From contig JAGZSY010000006.1 of the NCBI GenBank assembly GCA_018380885.1, positions 62,001 to 126,000 of the forward strand: DNA of 64,000 nt, read 5' to 3'. The position numbers and the translations under genes are program-made. This DNA comes from Enterocloster asparagiformis. Its GTDB lineage: Bacteria; Bacillota; Clostridia; Lachnospirales; Lachnospiraceae. Shown here in pieces: positions 33,712 to 49,471 of the stretch. The first letter of the stretch is position 1. Every line of letters begins with the position of its first letter. The notes below the pieces were generated by a model. It saw only the letters and a program-made list of their open reading frames with translations, was not told the origin of the DNA and did not search any database.

Positions 33712-34212
33712 TCACACTAAGTTCTGGCACATATAAGTATTTATTTCGTCCAGCATGCGCAGCAGTTCAAGCGCGCTGCGAAAGGACACGCTGTGTTCTC
33801 CCGTGTAGCTGCATTGGAGGCGTCCCTGCATGGAAGAATGCTGCCGGAACATCACATGGACCATAATCACCTTCTTTGCATCGGCCATGTAAGGAAACAT
33901 AGCCTTTACGATTTTGATCCGATCCTGATTTTCCCTGGGTTTTTCTCTCAGCTCCTTATACTGCCGTTCCCTCTCCTTTTGCAGAAAACGCGGGTCTGTG
34001 GTCGCCATTGGCGCTCCCAGCCTCTCGCACACCTCGTCAAGTCCCAATAGTAACTGGTCGAGCCCGATAAAGCCGACGGACTTGGACAACTGATAATTGA
34101 CAATTCTCCCGTAGGGCAGATTGTCTTTATGTCCATTGATACACACAAGCATCATACAGGCCCTGTTTGTACACGCCAGCTCAATCTGACGGCTCTTTTC
34201 CTCATCCAGCAT
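33712..34212 (-). CDS. Hypothetical protein, last gene of the surface operon
   Basis: A 166-residue protein that I do not recognise. It has no signal peptide or membrane helix, so it is predicted cytoplasmic. The first part is mixed alpha/beta (ACMMLVCINGHKDN, then IVNYQLSKSVGFIGLDQLLLG); the middle is a charged helix (about residues 80-100); the end reads HVMFRQHSSMQGRLQCSYTG, a likely small beta domain, then an amphipathic helix. GGAGG with 8-nt spacing sets the ATG at 34212. It follows the giant surface protein by 57 bp with no strong terminator between. A regulatory role for the operon is possible but speculative. Confidence 0.65.
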   Translation of the reverse strand: MLDEEKSRQIELACTNRACMMLVCINGHKDNLPYGRIVNYQLSKSVGFIGLDQLLLGLDEVCERLGAPMATTDPRFLQKERERQYKELREKPRENQDRIKIVKAMFPYMADAKKVIMVHVMFRQHSSMQGRLQCSYTGEHSVSFRSALELLRMLDEINTYMCQNLV

Positions 34213-34269: not shown

Positions 34270-37200
34270 CTATGGTGTCTCTCTGATCCATCTGCCGTTT
34301 TCATCCACGGGATACCCATCCGGCGTCGTCTCGTTCAGGTACAGGCTTCCCACCGGGCGCCCGTAGAGCCCGTCCGGATTGAAGAAATACCAATCCTCGC
34401 CCAGCTTCTGCCACCCGGTTACCATTCCTCCGGTGAACTGGTTTAAATAGTACCACCTCATGGCCTTTGCATCCCAGTACCAGCCCATGGTCAGACGCCC
34501 GAAATCAGCGCCCAGGGTCTCGTTCAGATAGTACCACTGTCCGGCGGCGTCCATATACCAGCCGTAATCCATGATGCCCTCGGGGTCAAAGTGGTAGGTG
34601 CAGGTCTGCCGGGCATCGTTGTACTTTATGTTTGCCCACTGGTTCTTGAGCCGGCTTCCGCTCCTTAAGACAAAGCTCCACTTGGTATCGTCCATGTCCG
34701 CGCGTTCCCAGCATCCCTCAGTGCCGGCCAGATAGGTCTTGTAGTCGTTGAAGGTGCCCGTCTTGGAGCCTGGGCCGGTGCCGGAGCTTCCCCGTGAGCC
34801 GCCGCCTCCGCCTCCGCCGCCGGAGCCTCCGCCGTTACCGGAACCTCCGCCGTTCGGATTATCCGGATCGTTCGGGTCGTTCGGGTCGTCCGGGCCTCCG
34901 GGATCGTCCGGATGACCGCCTCCGCTGGCGATGGAATCCACGACGGCTTTTAAGGTGTCGTAAGCCTCCAAAAGTTCCTCCACCGACGGGCGGTATTCCC
35001 GGTTGGCAACTCCCAGAGCCTCGTCAATGGCCGCCCCCAGAATCGCCTTGTTTTCTTCGCTCACCGAGGAATTGTTCTTCAGCGCCTGGGCGATGGAAAT
35101 CTCCTCCAACAGCTTCCGCCTTGCTTCCTGCCACTGCGCGTCGTCCGCCGGCTGGTAGATCACGTGAAGCGTCAGGTTCTTTGTGACCGGTTCGCTCGTG
35201 TCATACAGATTGGTCGAGGAAACCGTCTTTCCCAGCCCTGCGTATTCCCACAGGATACCGGTGATGGGGTCCGTATAATCGTCGAATATATCCAGATTCA
35301 TAAATCCTTCCGCATCTTCCAGCGCCGTATCGGTTCTGACCCTGATCAGGTATTCGGCGGACCGCTTATCGTCGATAATTTTCACACCGTGCGCTTTCAA
35401 ATACGTCAGCACATAGGTGCTCTCCACGTTTGCCTCAAAGGAGACGACTCCCGTGAACCCGGAGTCCTCGTCGTTGGGGTCCGGCTCCATGGGTACCTCT
35501 GTGCATACATAACCATCGTTCAGGTAATCCACGTTCCACAGCTGGTAATCCATATATCCCTTGGAGCTGCCGTCCAGCACGGCGTACACCCTGATGTCCG
35601 GTTTTGTGTTCACTCCGTACGGAATTTCCTTGTTGCTGCCTCCCACCTGTCTTGTGAGCGTGGAAGTCAGGGCCCACGGCACTTTTACGGTATCCTCGCC
35701 GATCTCTTCCCTCACGGCGTTGGATTCCGATGCCTTGGGGGCGCGCCGGTTGAACTTGACGGTGTAGAGCACGTCGACTCCCGCCTGCAGCGCTTCGCGG
35801 TCGCTGCCGTTGCCGGTCAGCTCCCCGATCAAATCCTCCGCCCGATCGTCCGACATGTCCAGAGCCACGTCCCCGTTCTTAGGCGTATAATCAATGGAAG
35901 CGTTGCCGGGCGTTGCGGTTCCCGAGGTGTCCGGGGCATAGTAGTTTGCCTGGAGCACCAGGTTCCCTTCCGGCATCGTGATGGTCGGATTTCTCCTGGT
36001 CTTGTCGGCCAGTGTCAGATCGCCGATCAGGGCGCTCCACTGCTTAAACGCCTGACCCCGGCTGTTCACAGTCTCCGCATCCAGCGAAATCTGATCGCCC
36101 GCTCTCACCAGGGCCGAGGTGTCGCTGTCAAAGTCCACGACCGCTTCGCCGCGCATGATCTTTGTGATCCTGCCGCCGTTTGTGAGCGTAATGGTGTAAT
36201 CCTGCTGGGCCTGTGAGCTTCCAATCACCGCCACCTGCGTGCCCATGAGAATCTTGTCGGAAGCTGCCGTATCCTCTCCCGGCTGCTTTGCAACGACCAC
36301 ATACAGCTGGTTCGTCTCCAGGCCGCCGAACACAACGCGGCGCGGGGAACCGGAAGGCGTAACCCAGCCGTCCTCATCTGCTCCCGGCACCTGGATCACA
36401 TCGCCCTCCATGCTCAGAATCGCATACAGGGTTCCGGCCTTTGCCGGCTCGACGATCACCTGCTTCGTGCCGGCCGTGTCGTCCTGCACGTTGTAATTGC
36501 TGCCCAGCGCCGGTACCGTCACGCGGGACGGCGGGCTGTAGGTATCCGGGTCTAAGCTGTCCGGAAGCACCGCTCCCACAGCCGGGTTGGCGTTCAGGTC
36601 AAGCTCGTAGGCGTAGTAGCCGGCGCAGGGATTTAATCCCGTAAATCCTCCGCTCCTTAACTGGCTTCCCGGTTTTGTCTCAATCACTTCGTAGTCCATA
36701 TTGGTCAGCGCGTACCTGCGGCTGTCGTTGGCCCCTGATATGGTCACCTTGCCGCTTCCGTCGCCAGCCACTGTTCCCTGGGCATCCGGCATTGCCAATA
36801 TGCCGTCGTCATCCAGGTAGATGGGAATGAATCTGGCCGTGTATGTCTGGTCGGCGTTGATTGTCTGGCTGTCCTGCATCCGGTTGCCCTGCTCGTCGTA
36901 CCATCCCCCGAATGTATAAAAACTGTCAGGGTGTGTGTCGGGCAGCAGCAGGCTTGACCACCTGGTTCCGATCACCACATGACTTCTCCTGCTCCCATCG
37001 ATCGTTCCGTGGGGCCCTGCGGTGAATTGCAGATCAAACCACTCGCCCTCGGTTTCCTCGAAGTTTGCAAACAATTTGATGGAATTGACGATCACCTTGT
37101 CGTCCGCCAGCTTCGGTCCCGTCTTGTTGCTTCCGTTGGACGTGGCCTGATACCAGCCGTCAAAGCTGAAATGTGCGGACGGCGTGGGCATAAGTCCTTC

Positions 37201-38682
37201 CGTCACCTGGGCCAGGGTCGCGCTGCTGGACTTTTTAACGAACTTAGGCGACGTATCCCCGCCAAAATATCCGTTCTGTCCATTGTAAAACTCGACTTTC
37301 GCCCAATACGTCTCGTCCGACACGTCCTCCGTGTAGGTGATCGTCACGGTTCCTCCCAGAAGGCTGGGGGTCACGGTCAGCTTTCCGTTCTCCTCGTCAA
37401 AGGAGACGTCCGACAGGGAGTCGTCCCATTCGATATTCGGCCGGTAAACATATCCTCCCAGCCGTTCCACGTCAATGTCAACCGGAACGCCCGGCTGTAC
37501 GGTGCGCATTTCCTCGGCGCTCAGGCTGTCGCCCCGGTTGTCCACCCGTCTCACCCGCAGCATAGTCTCAAAGGAGGGGTCCAAATCGTAGGTGTAGGTA
37601 AACGTGATCGCCTGGTTCGGCATCTTTCCGGTAAACTGGTAACTGGACGGATTCATATGGTAGCCTGCATCCTGTGCGGAAATAATTCCCATTTGATCCA
37701 AATCCGTCGTTCCCCCGTCCGTCAGCGCTCCGCCTGCGATCAGATAGGAGTCGATCACGGCCGGCTCAATGACATAGTCCGCCTCCACCGGAAGCGTTCT
37801 GGTATCCGGCGCCTTGATCTGATTGCCGTCCATATCCTGGTAGCGGACCGTAATCAGGAATTTTTTTGCGGTATCCGGTTCATATCGGTAAGCGACCGTC
37901 AGGTCGTCGTTGGGCATGTTGCCCCTGACCGAGTGGGTGGAGCTGTTGATGCTCGCCCCTCCCTCCTGCTCAGTGCCTGCTCCGCTGGCCTCGCCGTATT
38001 TGCGGATCAGGTTGTTCCGGATGATCACGGACTTGAACTTATAGCCCGGAATATCCCTTCTGTAGGTCGCCGAGATGGGATTGCTGGCCATCTGGATGCT
38101 CTCCCAGGACGGCTCAAAGAACTTCCTTAAATCCGGGTCGTTATAGTCGTCCGGCCATCCGCTGGTGTTATCTCCCTCGTTTCTCACAGCGTTAAAATCC
38201 CTGTAATGTTCCACCCGGAATGTATAGGGGCTTTGTGAGTCCGCCCGCCACACCGCGTTGTAAGTCGTCACGTCGTCATAGGGGAACGCGTAGGGAAGTG
38301 TTTCCACTTTGTTTCCGTTGTCTGCATACCAGCCGTCAAAGTAATACCCCTCCCATGTGACGCTGTCAAAGTTCGGGACCTTGGGTCTGGCTCCGGAGCC
38401 AAAGGTATCCGTGGGCAGCCCGGCAAAATTATCCGAAGTCGTCAGCGGATATCCCGCCTTTCCGCTGGCCGCAAACACATCGCCCTCCATGGCCGGCGCG
38501 GACGCCACGCTGCCGTAGCTTGAAAGCTGGATGCCCGGGCCGTTTTTGGGATCGAATTTCAGCTTGACGATATCCCCATAACCAGCCGCGTACGCCGGGT
38601 GTACCGGGGCAGCCATGGAAATTACCATGACTGCCGCCAGCGCCCCCGCCAGCTTTGATTTTATGTTATATCTCTTTCTCAT
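34270..38682 (-). CDS. Giant multidomain surface protein with wall-binding repeats (1470 residues)
   Basis: A signal peptide ends at AYA (residue 32). Repeats resembling InlB/Listeria-Bacteroides beta-grasp modules (YYFDGWYADNG, FSFDGWYQATS, YTFGGWYDEQG) alternate with MucBP-like modules (GYKFKSVIIRNN, YRYEPDT; FTYTYDLDPS). A module with KASESNAV is shared with the neighbour. A helical FIVAR-like segment (ISIAQALKNNSS, then GAAIDEALGVAN) precedes a Pro/Asp/Asn/Gly-rich linker and C-terminal aromatic wall-binding repeats (GWYWDAKAMRWYYLNQ). The ATG at 38682 is chosen for TAGGAGGAACCCG; a longer frame overlaps the upstream gene. Probably a wall-attached adhesin; ligand unknown. Third of the wall-binding genes in the inverton-controlled operon. 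Confidence 0.85.
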   Translation of the reverse strand: MRKRYNIKSKLAGALAAVMVISMAAPVHPAYAAGYGDIVKLKFDPKNGPGIQLSSYGSVASAPAMEGDVFAASGKAGYPLTTSDNFAGLPTDTFGSGARPKVPNFDSVTWEGYYFDGWYADNGNKVETLPYAFPYDDVTTYNAVWRADSQSPYTFRVEHYRDFNAVRNEGDNTSGWPDDYNDPDLRKFFEPSWESIQMASNPISATYRRDIPGYKFKSVIIRNNLIRKYGEASGAGTEQEGGASINSSTHSVRGNMPNDDLTVAYRYEPDTAKKFLITVRYQDMDGNQIKAPDTRTLPVEADYVIEPAVIDSYLIAGGALTDGGTTDLDQMGIISAQDAGYHMNPSSYQFTGKMPNQAITFTYTYDLDPSFETMLRVRRVDNRGDSLSAEEMRTVQPGVPVDIDVERLGGYVYRPNIEWDDSLSDVSFDEENGKLTVTPSLLGGTVTITYTEDVSDETYWAKVEFYNGQNGYFGGDTSPKFVKKSSSATLAQVTEGLMPTPSAHFSFDGWYQATSNGSNKTGPKLADDKVIVNSIKLFANFEETEGEWFDLQFTAGPHGTIDGSRRSHVVIGTRWSSLLLPDTHPDSFYTFGGWYDEQGNRMQDSQTINADQTYTARFIPIYLDDDGILAMPDAQGTVAGDGSGKVTISGANDSRRYALTNMDYEVIETKPGSQLRSGGFTGLNPCAGYYAYELDLNANPAVGAVLPDSLDPDTYSPPSRVTVPALGSNYNVQDDTAGTKQVIVEPAKAGTLYAILSMEGDVIQVPGADEDGWVTPSGSPRRVVFGGLETNQLYVVVAKQPGEDTAASDKILMGTQVAVIGSSQAQQDYTITLTNGGRITKIMRGEAVVDFDSDTSALVRAGDQISLDAETVNSRGQAFKQWSALIGDLTLADKTRRNPTITMPEGNLVLQANYYAPDTSGTATPGNASIDYTPKNGDVALDMSDDRAEDLIGELTGNGSDREALQAGVDVLYTVKFNRRAPKASESNAVREEIGEDTVKVPWALTSTLTRQVGGSNKEIPYGVNTKPDIRVYAVLDGSSKGYMDYQLWNVDYLNDGYVCTEVPMEPDPNDEDSGFTGVVSFEANVESTYVLTYLKAHGVKIIDDKRSAEYLIRVRTDTALEDAEGFMNLDIFDDYTDPITGILWEYAGLGKTVSSTNLYDTSEPVTKNLTLHVIYQPADDAQWQEARRKLLEEISIAQALKNNSSVSEENKAILGAAIDEALGVANREYRPSVEELLEAYDTLKAVVDSIASGGGHPDDPGGPDDPNDPNDPDNPNGGGSGNGGGSGGGGGGGGSRGSSGTGPGSKTGTFNDYKTYLAGTEGCWERADMDDTKWSFVLRSGSRLKNQWANIKYNDARQTCTYHFDPEGIMDYGWYMDAAGQWYYLNETLGADFGRLTMGWYWDAKAMRWYYLNQFTGGMVTGWQKLGEDWYFFNPDGLYGRPVGSLYLNETTPDGYPVDENGRWIRETP

Positions 38683-38692
38683 CGGGTTCCTC

Positions 38693-41600
38693 CTACTGAA
38701 TCCATGCGCCGTCGGCACCTGTCTGATACCCGTCCGGCGTCATTTCATTCTGATACATGGCACCTAAGGGGCGTCCTGCACCTCCTCCGAAGGTCCACTG
38801 TTCGTTTGTGGGGTCATAGGCGTATACGCCCGCGCCCACCGGGGAGAAGTAATACCATTTTCCGTCGATCATTCTCCACCCCAAAACCATCGCGCCGTTG
38901 TTTGGCTCTAAGTAATACCAGTTGCCGTCCTTTGAGTCCATTCTCCAGCCGGTGGCCATTCTTCCGTACGGGGCTTCCGCTTCCGTATTGCAGTAATACC
39001 AGTTCCCGGACGGATCGCAAATCCACCCGCTCAGCATGATTCCCCTGCTGTCAAAGTAGTACCAGCCGCTGTCCTTTTCCTGTGCTCCTTCCGGATACTT
39101 GAGCTGCGCCCACATACTGCTTAAGGGCAGTCCTCCGTTGAGCACAAAGCTCAACTGCCGCTCGCCGGACATGCCGGTGCTCTCCACCCAGTTGCCGTTG
39201 GTTCCAATTACGTAGCTCTTGGAAGGGGTTCCCGCGAAGGGCGCCGCTTTGGTTCCCTTGCCGCCTCCGCCGCCGCCTTTGCTTCCGCCCTTGTTTCCGG
39301 TTTCCTGAAGGTCGTCGTAGTGGCCGTACCGGTCGTCCAGCAGTTCCTTGTAGGGAGCTGTATTTTCCTTCAACTCATCCAGCGCTCCCACCAGCTGATC
39401 GATGGTGGCCTTCGGATCGTCGCGGTCCAGCACCTCCAGCGCCGACTCGATGAACTCCTTCAGCTTTTTGCTCTCGCTCAGCTTCAGGAAATGATCGTCG
39501 CTTATACCGATAGCCTCGTTGATGGCCGCCTCCAGCTTCTTGCGGATGTCGTCCACCTCGTTCTCATTGTTATCATAGTAGGCGTACACATAGGTTTTCC
39601 GGGTGATCCTGCGGTCCGGCTCGAACTCCTTGTAGCGGTCCTCCCGGTAGCTCCAGCCCAGATAGTTGTACTCCGCGCCGCCCGGGCTGATGAAGTACTC
39701 CAGCTGTTCCTCAAGGGCGCCGTACTCCTCCTCATAGTAGGAATCCTCCGGCGACTCGTTTCTGCGCACCTTAAACCAGTAGCGGTATTGTTCAGGGGCC
39801 GTGTTGTTCAGGAAATACAGGCGGTAGGCGCGGTTATATACCATCACGTACCGTTTTCCCTCCGTCGCCCTGAAGGTAAACAGACCTCCCGTCTGCTCCG
39901 GGTCGTAGTCCATGGGCACAATGCTCACCATCAGACCGAGATCCGGGTCCTGGCTGACCTCGTACAGCTGGTAATCCATCATGTCCACATCATTTTTTTC
40001 CATCTGCACGTAGGTGTTGAAGGAGGCTTCAGACGCGCTTGCGCGGTCCACCTTTCTGCCGTTCACATACCGCTCGACGGATACGTCCAGGCCCCAGGCC
40101 TCCTTGTACGCCTCCTCGTGGTCTAAGTCGTAATCGCCGCTCATCTTGATGGCGTTGGATTCCGACGCGCGCACGCTGTTCTTTACGTATACCACCTTGT
40201 AGGTCACATCCGCGTGGTTCACGTCCAACAGCTCCCGGTCCGCATCCGTGGTCAGTTCGTCCTCCAGATCCGGTATCTCTGTGGGATCTAAGGCCAGTTC
40301 CTCGCGGTTTCCTCCCCGCACCTCGTCGATCACAGTGGCGTTGCTGGGGGTAGCCGCGCGGCCGTACACCGCCGTCAGCACCAGGTTGGTATCCGGCATG
40401 GTGAAGCTGACTTCCCTGGTATTGATCCGGCTGCCGAATCCCTTCACGGAGCCGATGGTGAACTCCCAGTGGGAGAACGGACGGCCGTCGTCGTTGGAGG
40501 CTTCCGCCATAATTCTCACCGTTTCGCCCTTGTGGGCCTCCTCGTAGCGGCTTTCTCCCACGGTCTCCTCCCCTACGCTCACCACCTCGCCGTTCAGCGT
40601 TTCAATGATGTAATTTGGGAGTTCCAGGTCGCCGCCCGGGTCTGTGGTGATGACGCTTCCGTCCTCAAGGCGGCTCTCCGCCGTGATTCCGGTCTGACCC
40701 TTCGGCCGTGCCACCACCGTGTACTCCTTGTTATAGTCCAGCCCGCTGAAGCTTATGCTGCCCGGGCTGCCCGACACGCTCTGCCATCCGCCCGCGCCGC
40801 TCTGAGGCGCCATCACGACCCGGCCCTCGCTGTCTAACACCGCGTAATCCGATGCCGTGTCCGCCGGCCGGATGGTCAGTTCTGTCTTTCCTTCGTCCTC
40901 CTCGTCGTAGAGAACCTTGTAGTTGGTTTCCACCACCGGCGTCAGCACTTCCACGCCGTCGCTGATGGTTCCGCCCGCATCTGCGATCATGCTGCCGGTC
41001 TGAATCTCCGGCCGGGCCGTAGCCTCGTACACCAGATAGCGCATGCCCGGATACAGGTCGTCGAACACGGTGCGGCTGGTCAGAAGGTTGCCCTTGTTCA
41101 CCACCAGCACCTTCCCGTCAAGGTCTGTGAGTATGTACTGATAGCCCTGGGTGGTGCCAAACACCGTGATGCGCCCCTTGCCCTGGCCGTTCAGCCCTGC
41201 CATGGGTTCCGGGTCCGTCACCTCCGTGCCGAATATGGCCGGGTCCGGATAAAACTGGATCACATAGGTCTGGCCGTTTACAAGGGCCATATCGTCGTTC
41301 ATGGGTTCGCCCTGGGCGTACCAGTCGTCCACCAGGTAGTTCACCTCGGGCGTGTAGTCCGGAAGGCTGTCCTGGATGTCTCCCCATGTTTTGTCAAAGG
41401 TCGTGTGCAGCGTCAAACTCTGGTCCGCATTGATGGCGCCGTGGCTGCCCGCCTCAAAGGCGATGTCGATCCATGCCTCCGGGTTCTCCTCGAAGTGCGC
41501 GGTCAAGGTCGTGTCCTCCGTGAACCGGTAATCCTGGGGCAGAAGGGTCTCGCCCTCGTCCAGTTTCCGGTTGCCGTTGGCGTCGATAAACCAGCCGCCG

Positions 41601-44600
41601 AACCGGTAATAGCTGTTCTCAGGCCGGGCCTCCGGCATCAGATGTTTCTCCGCTATGACCGCCAGCGTGTAGGACTGTTCGCGGCCTGCGTCTGAGCCGT
41701 CGTTTGCCAGTATGCCGGCCCGGAACTTTCCGCCCGTCAGAGCCTGCACGTCCTGGGAGACGTCGCCGCCTGCGCTCAGAGATCCGTTTACGCCCGGCAC
41801 ATAGGTCACATTCACCCACTTGTCCGAAATGCGATCGTGCTTATAAGTTACCGCCGCGTTGTCGTTGGGCATGATTCCCGCCCAGTCGTTGCCCACAAAC
41901 TGCAGACCGGAGCCGGCGGGTTGAATCGTGTGGGAGGCCAGGCTGTATCCGTACTGCTCCTGGTATTCGCCCTCCACATTGCTGTCCGCCGCATAAGGAC
42001 CAAACGCCTGAGGCGGCATGATGTCCTTCAGACGGCTGTCGGCCGTCCCGTTGTCCTCGTAATGGACGGTCACTTCATATCCCAAAATCGTGGACTCGTA
42101 CAGGTACACCAGGCGTACCGGCTGGTTGGGCATGATTCCGCTGTATGCAAAGCTGCTGTCGAAATCGCCTCTCACGCCGTTTACCAGGCCGTCCGGAAGC
42201 TCTCCGGCCTCGTCGCCCCAGTCAAACCGGTACCCCACGCACTCGTAACCGTATACCTGGACCGGTTGAGCGGTAATCGCGTTCTCCGGATAGTACTGTC
42301 CGGACTGCGGGGCCGACACCGTGGTGCCGTTGTTCGTTTCATGGAGGACCTCAAATGCGGACCTGGCGCTGGTATCTCCATACCTCACCTGATAGCCATA
42401 GCGCACGGTGGCATCCTGCCCGGGCATCTTCCCGGTGAAGGTTCCTACATCGTTAAACTGGCCGATGGGAACGGATGTGCCGCTGAAATTGTATTCCGTC
42501 GGAGTCGTGCTGGAATCATCCGCGCTCCAGCGGTAACCCCTGACGGTCTTTTTCTCTTCCAGAAGCTGTTCTTCCACACTGTAGGCGTTTTCCAGCGTAT
42601 TGGACGCGAACATGATGTCGCCGGCCGCGTTGGAATGCTCCACCGTATAGTTAAACTTTACGTTTGGATCCGCCTCAAATATGGCGTAATAGGTGACGGG
42701 CGTCTCCGGGTAAACGCTGGGCAGCCTGTCGATAATCTGCGGATGATCCCAGTCGTTGACCGTGCTCCACCCCTTAAAGATATATCCGTACCGCGTCGTG
42801 GTGGGAAGCAGCGCATTGACCGGATTTCCGGCGGTTCCGGTCAGCGTCTCCGGCTCCGGCGTTCCACCGTTGCTGTTGAAAATGATCTGCGAACCGACCT
42901 TGCGGTACTCGTAGTTGACCGCCACGTCCTGGTTGGGCATGATGCCGGTAATCCGGCTGTAATCCGCTCCGTCCGCCATATTGGCCGTGAGGGTGGGCGG
43001 CGTCCCCTGTTCAATGACCACGTTGACCAGATCATATCCTGTAATGGCCGGCGCGGGGGCGATGTCCACCGGGTCCCCGGATGCCTTGGAGATTGCAGGA
43101 ATCGGCGCTGCGCCGGCGATAGAACCGCCTGTGTCCGCATCCTTTGTGTAGAAGCTGATCTGAAGGCCGTTTCGTTTGACGACCGCGTTTCGATCGTTAT
43201 TCGCGCCTGCGCCCGAAAGGTTCTTTGTTCCCACGGACACGTAAACTCCGGTGCCGTCCGCTTTCCCCTTGTCTGCAAAGAAGTTGTCTGCAAACGGGCT
43301 TGGGGACGTATCCACGCCGCTTCCAGGCAGAGGAGCGGCGATCTTAATCTCCTGCCCGGCCTCCGTGGAGATTCCTCCCGGCGACGCATCCGGCTGCCGG
43401 GCCGTTGTGACGCCGATCCTGGAAACGTTCAAGTCGCCTGTAACGGTGATGGCCCGCCCGTTTTCCAGATAGACGTTGGCTTTCTCCCCCGACGGCGTGG
43501 TATTATCCTCGATCATCACGTCGTTGACCACGTCGAATCTGCCGGAGCTGTTAAAATAGACTGCGCCCTTGCCCTCCGACACATTTCCCGACACCTTGCC
43601 GTAGTTCATGGAGAGCGCGGCGCTCCCCGTCACATTGACGGCGCTGCCCTGACTGCCGCTGCTTCCATGGCAATTTCTCAGGTTGGCCCCGGTGTTGATC
43701 TCCAGCCTGCCGGATTCGGCGCTCACCAGCGGATCGCTGCTCACTGTGCCGTTTCCGTCCAGAACAATGTCCGTCAGCTTTAAAGTCGCGCCCGTCACCT
43801 TGAAGATCGGTCCTGTGTAAGATCCCCCGCGCCTTAAGGTCTTGATGTAATCGGCGTTCTCGTTGGTGGGGTTTCCGGACCTGTCGTAATCCGTGCTTGC
43901 GATGGTAATGTCCCGATTGGAGCCGGATATCTCAATGGGAGCCGTGATATCCGGATAGTCCATGATGTAGATATACCCCTTCTTGTTTCCAATCTGATCC
44001 ATAGCGTACCGGATGGTCTTATAGGGGTTGCTGTACGTGCCGTCCGCCGCGTCAGAATCCGTACCCGTAGAAGATACGTAGTAAGACGTATCTCTGATTG
44101 CAAATGCCACGCGTTTGTGCACGATTTCATACGGATGAAGATAGAACTGCCAGGAATAGGCCATGCCGGAGTCAATTCCGCTCACAGAGCTTCCCCCGTC
44201 CTCCCGGAACACATTCGCAGTCCAGTTGCTATAACGTCCGATCCATCTGGTATCCGGCGGCGTAATACCAAGGCTGCTGTCGTTTGTAATACAGTCAAAG
44301 GTGGTTTTCACATACTGGTTTACCATGTGGAATCCGCGGTCGTTCTTGTAAACCGTAGCGTAGTCATCCGCTCTGCTGCCGCCGATCATAACGTCGGAGC
44401 CGGTGCCCAGCTTCACAAACCGTCCCGTGTTTCCGCCCTGGCCGGTTTTGTCGTAAACGTAATAGTCCACAAATACATATTTATTGTCCGGGCTTGGGGA
44501 AAGCGCGATCTTCAGCTCAATTCCCAACGTGCTGGTCAAGTCCTCCACCGCGCCGTTGTATTTGCCATTTGCCTTATATTTAGTTCCGTTATCCACCTGG

Positions 44601-44911
44601 ATGTAGGTGGCGTACCCGCTCCAATTATAGGTGGTTTGAATCCCAGATTTTGTGTACCCTGTCTGCCCAGCCTGAAGTCCACACAGGTCAAACCGGTATG
44701 TAGCACTGCCCTCTTCCGAAGCCCCTGTTGCCGGGCCAAACCACGTGTACGCCGTACCCTCGCTGGCTCCGTCTCCGAGATTCACGTCGGGGAGCTCCGT
44801 TGAGGCAAATGCGATCATCGCCAGCTGTGTGGACAGCAGGCCGACGGTCAGGCACACCGATAAAATCAGGGAAACAACACGTTTCCACTTTTGATAGATT
44901 TCTTTACTCAT
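38693..44911 (-). CDS. Giant multidomain surface protein with beta-helix and wall-binding repeats (2072 residues)
   Basis: Signal peptide about residues 1-38. About 275-520: a right-handed beta-helix segment starting YYVSSTGTDSDAADGTYSNP, with right-handed turns of the DUF1565 type. About 590-1180: repeated MucBP-like (VNYEYRKVG, VRYGYQVRYG, RLVYLYEST) and InlB-like (YIFKGWSTVND, YRFGGWFIDAN) modules. Further beta modules include VRASESNAI, shared with the 1470-residue neighbour. About 1780-1860: helical FIVAR-like segment; then a Gly/Lys linker and terminal wall-binding repeats (GWRMIDGKWYYFSP). AAGGTGAGGA precedes the ATG. With the neighbour, it looks like a tandem gene duplication. Likely an adhesin. 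Confidence 0.85.
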   Translation of the reverse strand: MSKEIYQKWKRVVSLILSVCLTVGLLSTQLAMIAFASTELPDVNLGDGASEGTAYTWFGPATGASEEGSATYRFDLCGLQAGQTGYTKSGIQTTYNWSGYATYIQVDNGTKYKANGKYNGAVEDLTSTLGIELKIALSPSPDNKYVFVDYYVYDKTGQGGNTGRFVKLGTGSDVMIGGSRADDYATVYKNDRGFHMVNQYVKTTFDCITNDSSLGITPPDTRWIGRYSNWTANVFREDGGSSVSGIDSGMAYSWQFYLHPYEIVHKRVAFAIRDTSYYVSSTGTDSDAADGTYSNPYKTIRYAMDQIGNKKGYIYIMDYPDITAPIEISGSNRDITIASTDYDRSGNPTNENADYIKTLRRGGSYTGPIFKVTGATLKLTDIVLDGNGTVSSDPLVSAESGRLEINTGANLRNCHGSSGSQGSAVNVTGSAALSMNYGKVSGNVSEGKGAVYFNSSGRFDVVNDVMIEDNTTPSGEKANVYLENGRAITVTGDLNVSRIGVTTARQPDASPGGISTEAGQEIKIAAPLPGSGVDTSPSPFADNFFADKGKADGTGVYVSVGTKNLSGAGANNDRNAVVKRNGLQISFYTKDADTGGSIAGAAPIPAISKASGDPVDIAPAPAITGYDLVNVVIEQGTPPTLTANMADGADYSRITGIMPNQDVAVNYEYRKVGSQIIFNSNGGTPEPETLTGTAGNPVNALLPTTTRYGYIFKGWSTVNDWDHPQIIDRLPSVYPETPVTYYAIFEADPNVKFNYTVEHSNAAGDIMFASNTLENAYSVEEQLLEEKKTVRGYRWSADDSSTTPTEYNFSGTSVPIGQFNDVGTFTGKMPGQDATVRYGYQVRYGDTSARSAFEVLHETNNGTTVSAPQSGQYYPENAITAQPVQVYGYECVGYRFDWGDEAGELPDGLVNGVRGDFDSSFAYSGIMPNQPVRLVYLYESTILGYEVTVHYEDNGTADSRLKDIMPPQAFGPYAADSNVEGEYQEQYGYSLASHTIQPAGSGLQFVGNDWAGIMPNDNAAVTYKHDRISDKWVNVTYVPGVNGSLSAGGDVSQDVQALTGGKFRAGILANDGSDAGREQSYTLAVIAEKHLMPEARPENSYYRFGGWFIDANGNRKLDEGETLLPQDYRFTEDTTLTAHFEENPEAWIDIAFEAGSHGAINADQSLTLHTTFDKTWGDIQDSLPDYTPEVNYLVDDWYAQGEPMNDDMALVNGQTYVIQFYPDPAIFGTEVTDPEPMAGLNGQGKGRITVFGTTQGYQYILTDLDGKVLVVNKGNLLTSRTVFDDLYPGMRYLVYEATARPEIQTGSMIADAGGTISDGVEVLTPVVETNYKVLYDEEDEGKTELTIRPADTASDYAVLDSEGRVVMAPQSGAGGWQSVSGSPGSISFSGLDYNKEYTVVARPKGQTGITAESRLEDGSVITTDPGGDLELPNYIIETLNGEVVSVGEETVGESRYEEAHKGETVRIMAEASNDDGRPFSHWEFTIGSVKGFGSRINTREVSFTMPDTNLVLTAVYGRAATPSNATVIDEVRGGNREELALDPTEIPDLEDELTTDADRELLDVNHADVTYKVVYVKNSVRASESNAIKMSGDYDLDHEEAYKEAWGLDVSVERYVNGRKVDRASASEASFNTYVQMEKNDVDMMDYQLYEVSQDPDLGLMVSIVPMDYDPEQTGGLFTFRATEGKRYVMVYNRAYRLYFLNNTAPEQYRYWFKVRRNESPEDSYYEEEYGALEEQLEYFISPGGAEYNYLGWSYREDRYKEFEPDRRITRKTYVYAYYDNNENEVDDIRKKLEAAINEAIGISDDHFLKLSESKKLKEFIESALEVLDRDDPKATIDQLVGALDELKENTAPYKELLDDRYGHYDDLQETGNKGGSKGGGGGGKGTKAAPFAGTPSKSYVIGTNGNWVESTGMSGERQLSFVLNGGLPLSSMWAQLKYPEGAQEKDSGWYYFDSRGIMLSGWICDPSGNWYYCNTEAEAPYGRMATGWRMDSKDGNWYYLEPNNGAMVLGWRMIDGKWYYFSPVGAGVYAYDPTNEQWTFGGGAGRPLGAMYQNEMTPDGYQTGADGAWIQ

Positions 44912-44932: not shown

Positions 44933-46570
44933 TTAAAAATTCAGTCGTTCTCCCTCCGGCAGGCCGTCGGTCGAAGGTTCCATGCCGCTGCCGGTGATCA
45001 GGCCGCCCGCATACTTGTCATCCTTGTTGTCGGAATCGTAGTGATAGAATCCGGTCCCTTCGTCTCCGCTGTGCCACCTGGGCTTGAACTCGTCGTCCAC
45101 TCTGGCCGCGAACTTACCGTTCAGGATGATCAGCCATCCGTCGTCTTTATCCTTCACCACCTTTTTCGCTCCGGTGACGATCTTTCCTCTGGAATTGACC
45201 ACCCGGTAGATGCCTTCGTCCTCCTGAACCACGCCGTAGCCGTACTCCTCGTCCGCTTCCAGCCTGAGACCATTTATATAGTAGGAATCCTGCACCTTTT
45301 TGAGGGTGTTGCGGTTCCCGTAGGCCATGCCGTTGCTCCTGAATCCAAAGGTGTAGACTCCGTCCTCCAGCTCGACCTTCAGCTCGCGCCCGGTCTGCAT
45401 GGAGCCGTCGTTCAGCTCGTCCGGCGAAAAGAGATAGAGATCCGCCTTCTCAATTCCGTATATATTTCCCTCTATAAAATCCTCAGACGACCACGCGTCC
45501 GTGTCGTATTGAGCGACAAACGTGCTGCGGGTGTCAAAGAGCACAAACCCCGTCTGCATCCTGCCAAGCCCGTCAAACGCATAGTAGCGGCCGTTCACTT
45601 TTCTGATTCTGTTCTGGTAGACATTTCCGTCCTCGTCCGTGCGCCACCAGCTGTACTCCCCGTCGTCGTAATCGCCCTCAATCAGATTGTCCGACGGGTA
45701 CATCCAGAGCCAGGCGTTTTTCAAAAGAGTTCCGCCGTCGTATCCGGAATAGAACTTCGCCGGCACGTCGCTGGTGGGGTTGCTCTTGTCCGCATTGCTG
45801 ATGCTGGCCACCTTGGACCACCAGGGAAGCATGATTCCATACTCGTCAAAGCCGTAGGTTCCGCCGTCTATGTTCCTCTGTACCATGCGGTCCCCGTTGC
45901 TTTTCACCTTCTTGGAGTGGTTGTTAAAATACAGCCACACCTGGTCGTACTCCATGTAATCCCTTCCGCTGATCTCGCTGGTTAAGTCCTCCAGCCCCTT
46001 TAACTCCAGCTGAGCGTAATCCAGCCAGCTCTCCGTCTTTAAGGCCCCGTCCTCGTCCGCATAGTAGACGCCGTCCACCAGGGGATTGTCGTCCTCGCCC
46101 AGCGGTTCTGCGTCCTCGTTGAACCACCCGGTAAGCATCCGGCCGCTCTCGTCGAATATGTAGCTCTTGCCGTTCACCGTTCTCTTGGAGGAGGAATCAG
46201 TGCCGCGGTACGCTTTGCCGCTGGTGCCGAAATAATACCATCCGGCCTCGTGCCCCGACTCGTCCGCCTCATCCCGCAGGACCCATGTGTTCTCGGCGCG
46301 TTTTCCGTCCTCGTCCACATAATACAGGCTGTCTCCCTGCTCGATCAGACAGTCCCTCAGCATGATTCCCTGGTCGCCCAGATAGAACCATGAATCCCTG
46401 GACTGCTTCCACGTGTTGTGCACCGGCTCATCATTTCCATCCAAATATTTCCATTCCCCGTCCTCGTTCATCCATCCCTCAACTGCATATGCGGTCATGG
46501 GGCTGGATCCAGCCATGGCGGATACGGTAACGACCAGAGCGCCGGCAATGATCATCATTCTCCTTCTCAT
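44933..46570 (-). CDS. Secreted cell-wall-binding-repeat protein (545 residues)
   Basis: Signal peptide ending after AYA (residue 29), followed by about 15 aromatic wall-binding-type repeats spread through the whole mature protein (EGWMNEDGEWKYLDGN, DSWFYLGDQGIML, AGWYYFGTSGKAY, and degenerate versions to the C-terminus such as GWLIILNGKFAARVDDE). No catalytic domain is visible, so it may be a wall scaffold or a ligand-binding protein. It lies 21 bp before the 2072-residue gene and 64 bp after the 3D-domain gene. The ribosome-binding site is modest (GGAAGGACTGTAGGATA). Confidence 0.8.
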   Translation of the reverse strand: MRRRMMIIAGALVVTVSAMAGSSPMTAYAVEGWMNEDGEWKYLDGNDEPVHNTWKQSRDSWFYLGDQGIMLRDCLIEQGDSLYYVDEDGKRAENTWVLRDEADESGHEAGWYYFGTSGKAYRGTDSSSKRTVNGKSYIFDESGRMLTGWFNEDAEPLGEDDNPLVDGVYYADEDGALKTESWLDYAQLELKGLEDLTSEISGRDYMEYDQVWLYFNNHSKKVKSNGDRMVQRNIDGGTYGFDEYGIMLPWWSKVASISNADKSNPTSDVPAKFYSGYDGGTLLKNAWLWMYPSDNLIEGDYDDGEYSWWRTDEDGNVYQNRIRKVNGRYYAFDGLGRMQTGFVLFDTRSTFVAQYDTDAWSSEDFIEGNIYGIEKADLYLFSPDELNDGSMQTGRELKVELEDGVYTFGFRSNGMAYGNRNTLKKVQDSYYINGLRLEADEEYGYGVVQEDEGIYRVVNSRGKIVTGAKKVVKDKDDGWLIILNGKFAARVDDEFKPRWHSGDEGTGFYHYDSDNKDDKYAGGLITGSGMEPSTDGLPEGERLNF

Positions 46571-46634: not shown

Positions 46635-47501
46635 TTATTCCTTCAAGTACACGTACTTGTCTTTCCTTCCATACTGGACCGCCTCCTCGTGGGTATCGAA
46701 AAAGATGTCCAGCGTTTTTCCCTTCACCGCTTTTCCGGTGTCCTCCACCAGGTAGACCACTCCGTCGATCACAATCTCGGTTCCGAGAGGGATCACGGAC
46801 GGGTCCGCGGCAACGGTATGGCCCGCTCTGGGCACGGTTTCCATCTTCGTCAGAACCTCCTCCTTCTCCCCGCAGCACAGCGGACAGCCGCAGTAGCCCG
46901 TCACCTGGAACTCTCCCAGATAATCCGGCCCTTCCTCCGGCGCGGCGGCACGCCTGTACACAGAGCAATCTCTCCGGCCGAACTCCCTGGCCTCCTCCCA
47001 GCCTTCAAAATAGATTCGCAGCTTCTCCCCGGCCTCCTCGTTGACCTTATCCTCGATCACATACGGTTTCCCATCGATCAGCACAGCGTCCCCTATTTGG
47101 AAAACAGACAGCGCGCCGGCCGCCGTGCGCCCGTCCACCGGCAGCTCACCGGAGTATGTCATTTCACCCTCCGACGAACTGTAGGCCGCCACCTCAAGCT
47201 CCCCCAGATACTCAAATTCCCGCCGGCTTACTCCCTGGAGGAGCGTCTGCTCTTCGGCCTGGCTTGGGCCCGAATCCGGCGCCTCCACCAGGTACGGATT
47301 GTCAATGGTGCCGTCTCCTCCCTCCACAGCCCGGCACTGCTCCGCTTTGGCCGTATCCATTCGGATCAGCCAGACCCCGGCCACCAGGCCGGCCAGGCCG
47401 CAGCCAATGGCCGCCGTTCTCAGCAGCCTGCGCAGACGCCGGCGTCTCAGAGAGGATTTTCTGAATTCCGTCATCCTATATCCATGAATTTTATTTGTCA
47501 T
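46635..47501 (-). CDS. Membrane-anchored protein with two 3D-type domains
   Basis: A 288-residue protein with an arginine-rich N-terminus, one membrane helix (about residues 27-48) and an exported region. The C-terminal domain has the 3D (DDD, YabE/YuiC/MltA-like) pattern: VAADPSVIPLGTEIVIDG, VEDTGKAVKG and LDIFFDTHEEAVQYGR, implying peptidoglycan lytic activity. Residues about 90-180 look like a degenerate copy (YLGELEVAAY, IGDAVLIDGKPYVIED, LRIYFEGWEEAREFGRR) lacking the DTG aspartate. The ATG at 47501 is selected for its GGAGGCGGGGG site; a longer frame would overlap the upstream gene. It probably trims or remodels wall to accommodate the giant surface proteins. Confidence 0.8.
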   Translation of the reverse strand: MTNKIHGYRMTEFRKSSLRRRRLRRLLRTAAIGCGLAGLVAGVWLIRMDTAKAEQCRAVEGGDGTIDNPYLVEAPDSGPSQAEEQTLLQGVSRREFEYLGELEVAAYSSSEGEMTYSGELPVDGRTAAGALSVFQIGDAVLIDGKPYVIEDKVNEEAGEKLRIYFEGWEEAREFGRRDCSVYRRAAAPEEGPDYLGEFQVTGYCGCPLCCGEKEEVLTKMETVPRAGHTVAADPSVIPLGTEIVIDGVVYLVEDTGKAVKGKTLDIFFDTHEEAVQYGRKDKYVYLKE

Positions 47502-47518: not shown

Positions 47519-48298
47519 TCACAAATGATTGTGCATGGAATCCAAATCCATTTCTTCCTGGGTTAAAAACCTCCACGTACTGCACTCCAGGCATTTGTCC
47601 CAGGTGATATCGCAGTACCGCCACTCCCCGTCGATCCAGGTCCTGTTCCACGCGTGGTTTCCGGCATAGACCGGCTCGCAGGTGAGGCCGCCCATCCTGC
47701 ACAGGACCAGATACGAGGACACGTATCCCCAGCAGACCCCGCTGCCGCCTACCACCGCATCATAAATTGTCCTGCTCTGCAGCGTGCGGTCATAGTCCAC
47801 ATTGTCATAAACCCATTCATAAAAATACTCCGCCTTCTCCCGGTCCCCCATCCCGCCGCACGCCCGGGTCACCTGGGAAAGCCTGTCCCGCACCTGCAGG
47901 TGCTCCGACACGGCCCCGGCCGGATCCTCACAGGAAACGCAGATGGCAAATCCGCCGTTTTCCCCTGCCGCATACAGCGTCACCGGCTCTTTGCCCAGAT
48001 ATATGTACCTGTAAAAGTATTTTCCGAAGGAGCTGGCCTCCGCCTTTGTGGCGAAAAAAATCCCGGTTTCAATTAAGTCCCCCGGGGCTGCCTCACCTTG
48101 GAGCGCGCTTATCACACACTCCCCAAGGGCTTCAAAGGCTTGGTTTCGGGCGGTCATTTGATCCGCCGTCCGCCCGGCGCCGGCCTCCTGCGCTGTGGCC
48201 GGTTCGGACGGCTGCATCGCATATAGCTGTTTCTCCCAACAAGAGTTCATGGCAAAAATGGCTGCTAAAAATAGGAAAATGGAACCGATCCGTTTGAT
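47519..48298 (-). CDS. Exported transglutaminase-like protein with apparent ATC start
   Basis: The C-terminal ~110 residues form a transglutaminase-like cysteine-protease fold: cysteine in GGSGVCWGYVSSYL, histidine in NHAWNRTWIDGEW and aspartate in YCDITWD complete the triad. Upstream of the ATG at 48250 the frame stays open and encodes an export signal, KRIGSIFLFLAAIFAMNSCW, preceded by a strong AGGAGGGGAGGA site. The codon correctly placed for that site is ATC (48298-48296), with no ATG, GTG or TTG in frame. Either ATC is used as a rare start or a former ATG has mutated; initiation at 48250 would remove the signal. First gene of the surface operon, 25 bp from the left inversion site. Confidence 0.75.
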   Translation of the reverse strand: MKRIGSIFLFLAAIFAMNSCWEKQLYAMQPSEPATAQEAGAGRTADQMTARNQAFEALGECVISALQGEAAPGDLIETGIFFATKAEASSFGKYFYRYIYLGKEPVTLYAAGENGGFAICVSCEDPAGAVSEHLQVRDRLSQVTRACGGMGDREKAEYFYEWVYDNVDYDRTLQSRTIYDAVVGGSGVCWGYVSSYLVLCRMGGLTCEPVYAGNHAWNRTWIDGEWRYCDITWDKCLECSTWRFLTQEEMDLDSMHNHL

Positions 48299-48322
48299 TT
48301 TCCTCCCCTCCTGTTCCGTGTT

Positions 48323-48350
48323 TACAACTGAATATCTCTTTTGTTGTACG
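48323..48350 (+). repeat. Left inverted repeat (recombination site) of the invertible segment
   Basis: Begins TACAAC (48323-48328) and ends GTTGTA (48343-48348) plus CG. The same 28 bases occur inverted at 48590-48617 with one mismatch (T at 48329). The internal dyad of 6-7-bp arms around a 12-14-nt centre is the typical organisation of a tyrosine-recombinase core site. Confidence 0.9.
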
Positions 48351-48532
48351 AAAAAACAGGGGTACGGGATAAAATTCTGATGAGCTTGGATTGACGGGAA
48401 TATTTAGAAGAATTGATGTCCGGTTTCAAGAAAACGGATAACAAAACGATTAATGCATGTGCTGAGTTGATTTAATTTGTAACCCAGTTTTGTTTTTATA
48501 CCCTTTTTTGTCGATTTATTTTGAAAAATATG

Positions 48533-48561
48533 TAGAATTATAGAAATAAATGTAGTATAAT
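48533..48561 (+). promoter_or_regulatory. Candidate switch promoter inside the invertible segment
   Basis: TAGAAT (48533-48538), 17-nt spacer and TATAAT (48556-48561), 28 bp from the edge of the right repeat. It points toward the recombinase gene as sequenced. After inversion its start site would lie about 70-80 nt upstream of the first surface-operon gene. The -35 box is poor, so confidence is limited. Confidence 0.5.
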
Positions 48562-48574
48562 TTTTTTAAATCTC

Positions 48575-49471
48575 TTAAATGTACTCTAGCGTACAACAAA
48601 AGAGATATTCTGTTGTATCGTTTAAAATCAGCTTCATTTTCTCCAGCTGCAATCGATGCTGGCTCCCACTCTCCTTTGTATAAATGCGGGTTGTGTTGAT
48701 GTCCCTGTGTCCCAGGATATCAGCTAATTTTGCCAAATCCTTTTCGATTTCATAGTAGGTTCTCGCAAAGAGGTGCCGCAGGTTGTGAGGGAAAATCTTT
48801 TCCGGCGCGACCCCAGCTTCAATGCCCAGGGCTTTCATCTCCCGCCAGATATTGCTCCGGTCCAGCGCCCTTCCGCTCTTTGTGACAAATATCATCCCCT
48901 GGCGGATATTCTTTTTTTCCACATAATTGTGCAGCACTGTGCAGAGCTTGCGGCTCAGCAGAACGGTCCTGATCCTGCCCTTGCACTCAATTTCCGCCTG
49001 TCCCTTGTGGACGGCCTCCACTGTGATATACAACAGCTCCGACACGCGGATTCCGCTGGCGCAGATGGTTTGCAGCAGCAGCGCCAGCCGCTCGTTCCCG
49101 TTGGCCAGCGCGGTTTTTACCAGCCGTTCGTACTCCTTTTTTGACAGCTCTATGCGCTCGGGATAAAAGGAGCTCTTGCTGATTTTTAAAAATTTCGTTT
49201 CACAGCCGTTCCATCCATGGTATTTAAAGAACCCGTTGAGGGCCGCCAGGGCGCAATTGATGGTCACCGGGGTGATCTGCGCGCGCAGGCCCGCTTTCCA
49301 CAGCAGCACCGTCTCCTTTGTGACCGGACACGATCCTGCAAAATCCTTGAATTGGTTTAAATAGTACCGGTATTTCTTGATTGTCTCCCTGCTCCTCTCG
49401 CGGCCCTCCAGCCATTGGCCGAACTGATCGATCTTCTGGTCCGTTATAATCCTTTGATCTTCCTTTTTCAT
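48575..49471 (-). CDS. Tyrosine recombinase (site-specific integrase), predicted invertase of the adjacent segment
   Basis: A 298-residue tyrosine recombinase: a SAM-like core-binding N-domain (about 10-95) and catalytic domain (about 105-285) with the full set R142, K164, H229, R232, H255 and nucleophile Y264 (GHRDINTTRIYT). AAGGAGG precedes the ATG. The last codons run through the right recombination site: NDTTEYLFCCT is encoded across it, then LEYI and stop. After inversion the same frame would instead continue KKQGYGIKF and stop, so the tail depends on switch orientation. It resembles XerD-like orphan invertases next to their invertible promoters. Confidence 0.9.
   Translation of the reverse strand: MKKEDQRIITDQKIDQFGQWLEGRERSRETIKKYRYYLNQFKDFAGSCPVTKETVLLWKAGLRAQITPVTINCALAALNGFFKYHGWNGCETKFLKISKSSFYPERIELSKKEYERLVKTALANGNERLALLLQTICASGIRVSELLYITVEAVHKGQAEIECKGRIRTVLLSRKLCTVLHNYVEKKNIRQGMIFVTKSGRALDRSNIWREMKALGIEAGVAPEKIFPHNLRHLFARTYYEIEKDLAKLADILGHRDINTTRIYTKESGSQHRLQLEKMKLILNDTTEYLFCCTLEYI
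48590..48617 (-). repeat. Right inverted repeat (recombination site), inside the recombinase 3' end
   Basis: On the minus strand it reads TACAACA (48617-48611), a 12-nt centre, then TGTTGTA (48598-48592) and CG. Its 7-bp arms form a better dyad than the left copy. It overlaps codons for the recombinase's last 14 or so residues. Confidence 0.9.

Follow-up and report, generated by a model that had tools for sequence, protein, structure and literature searches.

A candidate promoter inverton between a predicted surface-protein operon and a tyrosine recombinase gene that spans one of its repeats

Does the short AT-rich segment lying between a tyrosine recombinase gene and a large predicted surface-protein operon in Enterocloster asparagiformis act as an invertible promoter, and what would its inversion do to the recombinase itself? 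An earlier note on the window (the whole 64,000-nucleotide stretch of DNA analysed here) had proposed such a phase switch from the letters alone. We consider it highly probable that the locus is a promoter inverton, flipped by the adjacent tyrosine recombinase, whose gene spans the right repeat, and switching a six-gene predicted surface operon. The features on which this reading is built are collected in Table 1.

Table 1. Features of the predicted inverton, the recombinase gene and the operon (positions in the window)
Feature	Position	Strand	Remarks
Left (operon-side) inverted repeat, putative recombination site	48323..48350	+	TACAACTGAATATCTCTTTTGTTGTACG; repeat comparison
Segment predicted to invert	48351..48589	.	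239 bp, 28.9% GC; opposite orientations in relatives
-35-like element TAGAAT	48533..48538	+	17 bp from -10; columns conserved in 31 aligned spacers; not a consensus match
-10 element TATAAT of predicted invertible promoter	48556..48561	+	as sequenced faces the recombinase, which would be OFF for the operon
Right (recombinase-side) inverted repeat	48590..48617	-	TACAACAGAATATCTCTTTTGTTGTACG; within recombinase reading frame, coding for TTEYLFCCT
Tyrosine recombinase, candidate invertase	48575..49471	-	298 aa; tail ...CCTLEYI as is, ...CCTKKQGYGIKF after in-silico inversion
Putative recombinase promoter, outside segment	49631..49658	-	TATACA-16-TATAAT; weak; the scanned stretch has 3 promoter-like sites where shuffling predicts 2.7
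Shine-Dalgarno-like sequence before gene 1	48302-48312		AGGAGGGGAGG
Gene 1, transglutaminase-core protein	47519..48298	-	PF01841; apparent signal peptide
Gene 2, 3D-domain protein	46635..47501	-	PF06725; 288 aa
Gene 3, predicted surface protein, choline-binding repeats	44933..46570	-	PF19127, PF19085; 545 aa
Gene 4, predicted surface protein, List_Bact and choline-binding repeats	38693..44911	-	2072 aa
Gene 5, predicted surface protein, MucBP, Flg_new_2 and choline-binding repeats	34270..38718	-	1482 aa
Gene 6, conserved protein without family	33712..34212	-	166 aa; homologues directly behind the inverton in several relatives

The repeat pair, the operon and the recombinase gene

The repeats themselves are as the earlier note had described them: two arms of 28 nt, inverted relative to each other and complementary at all but one position (27 of 28), enclose 239 nt with a GC content of 28.9%, against 57.4% for the whole window, and both arms contain the internal dyad TACAAC...GTTGTA. 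A search of the window for the inner 21 nt of the arm, with up to 3 mismatches, returns these two sites only, where shuffles expect 0.01; the repeat pair is real and beyond chance. Rfam gave no match at gathering scores between 47000 and 50000, and a repeat scan of viral contigs found no stretches.

The operon adjoins the left repeat and comprises six genes from 48298 to 33712 (14.6 kb, gaps of -26 to 64 bp), the extent proposed for it before, but the start of its first gene needs revision, being probably the ATC at 48296-48298 and not the ATG at 48250. This ATC follows the Shine-Dalgarno-like sequence, opens the apparent signal peptide and is common to four genomes; the three relatives that share it (L081, L082 and L103, the last with a later frameshift in its gene 1 homologue) carry an in-frame stop just ahead of it, and a more distant homologue in L094 has ATG at the same position. 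We also considered a translational switch in which the segment supplies a start codon, as in-silico inversion brings an upstream ATG (48361) into frame with gene 1. That ATG is unconserved in relatives, and the idea was dropped because an in-frame stop precedes the conserved ATC in the three close relatives.

Parts of the operon recur with the inverton elsewhere. All six genes are present in order at locus L111 in genome G008 (identities of 65-81% across genes 1-5 and 64% for gene 6), genes 3-5 lie behind the own inverton of L004, and homologues of the 166-aa protein stand directly behind the inverton in L104, L110, L006 and others. The 166-aa protein had no match in Pfam, and its AlphaFold model (pLDDT 76) resembled nothing in the PDB at E 0.001 or below; the protein shows conserved RQxSSMQG and FRSALEL motifs. 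The first protein behind the inverton varies across the wider family: among 66 of them, with 25 of the 58 families listed, we counted prepilin peptidase 3 times, SPFH 3 times and LRR_5 twice, besides others. Signalling domains also occur among these 66, namely GGDEF (5), EAL (2) and response regulator (2).

On the other side of the segment, the recombinase has the two marks of its class, a Phage_integrase domain (PF00589, E 4.4e-28) and the R-K-H-R-H-Y set. R142, K164, H229, R232, H255 and Y264 are invariant across 26 aligned recombinase sequences, and we take them to be the catalytic set of tyrosine recombinases. XerA, XerD and XerH in the PDB match the protein by sequence and by fold. A neighbouring tyrosine recombinase with all its catalytic residues, as proposed earlier, is well founded. 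What had been overlooked is the extent of its gene. Instead of ending before the right repeat, the reading frame runs through it: the last four sense codons and the stop codon lie inside the segment, with the stop starting 12 bases beyond the repeat. Since the right repeat is thus inside the recombinase gene, flipping would rewrite the recombinase tail.

Relatives of the locus and the orientation of their segments

We searched genome contigs with a profile of the recombinase (26-row alignment) and inspected the best 80 of 582 confirmed loci. Many of these 80 come from Clostridia, Lachnospiraceae or Oscillospiraceae and a few from Bacilli or Erysipelotrichaceae, some records being unspecific. 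A repeat pair stands at the recombinase 3' end in 75 of the 80, and the other five sequences end within 356 bp past the gene. In the repeat-bearing set, all 72 of the spacers compared (out of 75 loci) fall below the GC content of their own locus. With loci from whole-genome searches added, the set grew to 117 distinct recombinase genes, window included, 10 of which have less than 380 bp downstream. A repeat pair scoring at least 14 accompanies 106 of the 107 genes with at least 380 bp downstream, against none of 224 control positions (at score 13, 106/107 against 2/224; at 17 or more, 100/107 genes); as the genes were found using the window's recombinase, 106/107 describes the relatives of that recombinase. 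The single exception, L099, has a stop within the recombinase frame. A recombinase match at L083 (genome G002) has TAG and TAA codons beside an intact repeat pair, which suggests a decayed copy.

Close relatives of the recombinase are not universal in the sampled taxa. In the family of G008, 6 of 397 sampled genomes pass E 1e-95; in its genus, 7 of 17 pass E 1e-90; and in the genus of G002, 14 of 25 pass E 1e-80. Further genus searches yielded no new loci. The nearest relatives form a clade of 33 members, window included, with a recombinase identity of at least 51.5%, repeats of 21-34 nt and spacers of 187-297 bp. The repeat overlaps the recombinase reading frame in 31 of these 33 and in 61 of the 107 genes of the wider set; in the remaining members, it begins 3-56 bases past the recombinase stop codon.

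Comparison of homologous spacers reveals both orientations. Taking the best hit for each pair (E up to 1e-6, n=92), 15 of 92 spacer pairs match in opposite orientation, compared with 0 of 3671 matches before the first repeat and 0 of 61 after the second. In 12 of the 15, the match is a mirror image around the middle of the segment with a deviation of no more than 3 bases, as for L120/L122 (142 bp at 80%) and L047/L069 (161 bp at 81%); the others deviate from the mirror by 14 (L122/L132), 19 (L034/L069) and 6 (L021/L034). These pairs are not independent, L122 taking part in 5 and L021, L027 or L069 in the other 10. Five further opposite matches were left out as second hits of pairs whose best hit is on the same strand (offset 24-52); they probably reflect an internal hairpin.

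The recombinase tails provide a second view of orientation. Within the 120 homologues listed of 7997 scored, the closest, P0001-P0008, read the repeat DNA in the window's frame, and many others read it in another frame as YNRISLLL and variants. In-silico inversion alters the tail in 10 of the 33 clade loci and leaves it unchanged in 23. We compared the tails of those listed database proteins that are at least 93% identical to a clade locus whose tail changes on inversion. The flipped tail is present in P0065, which is 99.7% identical to L086 over 292 aa, and in P0013, which aligns to L104 at 99.3% with a gap of 2 residues, so both tail forms exist for at least two relatives. The as-is tail is found in P0001, P0002, P0003, P0005 and P0062; the tail of P0011 resembles this form but has substitutions, and P0029 has a different end. 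For the window recombinase, P0001 (99.7% identical) has the same tail as the window, and the flipped tail was not found among the listed proteins of this database, which is clustered at 90% and could hide a flipped member.

These comparisons of assembled sequences establish that homologous segments have inverted in relatives, and we infer the same for the window locus. The immediate subclade, window included, is in one orientation in 4 of 4 members. An alternative is that the repeats serve as attachment-like sites, or persist as a fixed relic, in a locus that has ceased to invert; it could appeal to the fact that neither the window nor the three closest relatives compared yielded an inverted copy. 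We give this alternative almost no credence, given that the catalytic residues are intact, the repeats are near-identical across the family, and relatives have mirrored segments and two flipped tails.

The promoter-like element and its direction

An inverting segment between the operon and the recombinase could act through a promoter of its own, and the TATAAT at 48556-48561 does point away from the operon, on the + strand, as the earlier note had it. Searching for the element as TGTAGTA, TGTAGAA or TGTAATA on both strands of the 33 clade spacers, we found it 27-42 nt from the inner repeat edge and directed toward the recombinase in 29, toward the operon in one (L122) and missing in three (L104, L085 and L017). 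L106 and L094 have an extra copy facing the operon, yet 148-149 nt from the repeat. An alignment of 31 spacers, with L104 included via a looser pattern, gives a consensus of approximately TxGAxT, 17 bp, TATAAT (also rendered TAGA(A/C)T-17-TATAAT). A model trained without the window gives the window's element 28.9 bits on the + strand against -11.8 for the opposite strand, and leave-one-out scoring of the 33 spacers places 31 toward the recombinase, one toward the operon and one under the 95% shuffle threshold. The bias toward what would be the OFF state of the operon thus covers 29 of the 30 clade loci with the motif, a ratio that does not amount to 30 independent draws because several loci are close relatives. 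As sequenced, the window locus would likewise be OFF.

The description of this TATAAT as the best -10 of the segment holds in that the element is conserved and directional in relatives, but a consensus scan of the segment finds no sigma-70 promoter, because the -35 fits at only 3 of 6 positions. The promoter is therefore one we recognise by conservation and not by consensus. Applied to 74 more distant spacers, the clade model passes only 8 at the 95% shuffle level (6 toward the recombinase and 2 toward the operon), with about 4 expected by chance; we therefore claim the predicted promoter and its OFF bias for the clade only.

An inverting segment may also act by control of elongation, as in the C. 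difficile cwpV switch, whose promoter lies outside the segment, unlike that predicted in the window, and which works without an internal one (PMC2784873, in the part available). Transcripts from the recombinase promoter would then read through into the operon, a terminator would stop them in one orientation, and the internal promoter would be minor. The recombinase is indeed co-directional with the operon. Of the 33 spacers, 20 have terminator-like hairpins of -8 kcal/mol or lower running opposite to the promoter and 15 have them on its own strand, against 11 of 165 shuffled sequences. The window itself argues otherwise: a terminator scan passes none, its only hairpin reaching -8 kcal/mol is on the promoter strand, and the cwpV-type pairing of an outside promoter with an orientation-specific terminator in the segment was not found there. 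With the internal element conserved and directional besides, we regard elongation control as very unlikely. A conserved terminator, common in relatives, was likewise kept out of the proposed mechanism because the window scan finds none.

The reading of an invertible promoter segment is thus upheld by the architecture, by opposite orientations between collinear flanks, by the two tail forms in relatives and by the conserved directional element. At the window locus, near-identical repeats around a short segment are present together with a promoter-like element that is directional as judged by conservation.

Proposed mechanism and its place among known switches

We envision that the adjacent recombinase flips the segment by strand exchange in an asymmetric core between half-sites. 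The element would be a sigma-A promoter with a start near 48568 in the present orientation; a flip would turn it from antisense to the recombinase to sense to the operon, so that it would drive the six genes in one orientation and would fire antisense into the recombinase gene in the other. As a by-product of inversion, the last residues of the recombinase would be replaced. We infer that the element is active as a promoter, that the flipping is carried out by this recombinase, and that the antisense RNA or the tail swap has consequences.

Feedback on the recombinase might instead be the main output, with antisense RNA from the OFF promoter and tail rewriting at its centre and the operon as a secondary target. 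The direction of the element in 29/33 loci and the repeat within the recombinase frame in 31/33 would suit this, as would the in-silico tail changes in 10/33 and the two such tails in databases. We judge it highly improbable all the same: the tail is unchanged in 23/33, its few residues (286-298) have low confidence in the structural model, and the operon is conserved together with the inverton. Within the promoter inverton preferred here, we raise tentatively, as a possibility more doubtful than likely, a self-reading switch. With its site in the recombinase 3' end and an OFF promoter that would fire antisense, each flip would alter how much of the flipping enzyme there is and which C-terminus it carries, giving orientation-dependent switching with a built-in OFF bias, in a recombinase family spread through Clostridia.

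A recombination site within the recombinase's own gene, as in the window, is familiar from SSV-type integrases, which have their attachment site inside the integrase gene. There the reaction is integration and not inversion, and the gene is split, whereas in the window a short tail would be swapped. The E. coli fim switch has the order fimE-fimS-fimA, with fimE controlled by orientation; to our knowledge, fimE overlaps no repeat. Like the window, fim combines tyrosine recombinases with a promoter segment of 314 bp that inverts and lies immediately ahead of a surface operon; its 9-bp repeats and two recombinases set it apart (PMC8777976, in the part available), as does its Gram-negative host. 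The C. difficile cwpV and flagellar switches have 195 and 154 bp between 21-bp inverted repeats and are flipped by a tyrosine recombinase (PMC2784873, PMC5386303); one RecV serves both, although their repeats are without recognisable identity (PMC5386303). Inversion signatures have been described in 14 unique Clostridia samples (Sekulovic 2018, PMC5903667). These statements, too, follow the available parts of the sources.

The closest precedent is in Jin et al. 2025 (PMC11892184), whose available part describes group 139, a set of 33 invertons (32 in Clostridia) associated with tyrosine recombinase group 35. Reads show both orientations, the orientation changing over time in Clostridium sp. 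D5 and Intestinimonas, and 952 of the 1837 invertons in that work intersect coding sequence. The adjacent group 139 recombinase is termed 'non-regulatable', not being placed to be driven by the inverton, and the same holds in the window, where the recombinase adjoins the inverton with its 3' end toward it. By the printed coordinates, the repeats of the Clostridium sp. D5 example measure 26 nt and its spacer 205 bp, within the ranges of our clade; the Intestinimonas example differs from the window with 14-nt repeats and a 227-bp spacer. We had considered identifying the latter with our L037, and rejected this on the printed spacer of 227 against 262 in L037; a search of that genome returned two places. 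From what is available of that article, the window fits the group 139 layout and may belong to that group; a repeat inside the recombinase gene, present in the window, is not mentioned there.

The literature covered, which is partial and of which Jin 2025, Sekulovic 2018, the C. difficile switches and E. coli fim are relevant, holds nothing on the window locus, and we found in it no account of an inversion that rewrites the tail of the recombinase driving it. The earlier note had likened the pattern to known switches and taken this specific one to be undescribed; the kind is indeed known, from group 139 (PMC11892184, as available). A promoter inverton beside a tyrosine recombinase is of a known kind; the well-supported variant with a repeat inside the recombinase gene is new.

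Taken together, these results link a recombinase family, mostly of Clostridia, to a single recognisable type of switch, in which the repeat is conserved and, within the nearest clade, the promoter element as well. Assemblies therefore suffice to tell the orientation, with no need for raw reads, and for some members the recombinase tails in databases show it too. The locus thereby offers a testable case of a switch enzyme that may be altered by its own product, beside an operon of very large predicted surface proteins.
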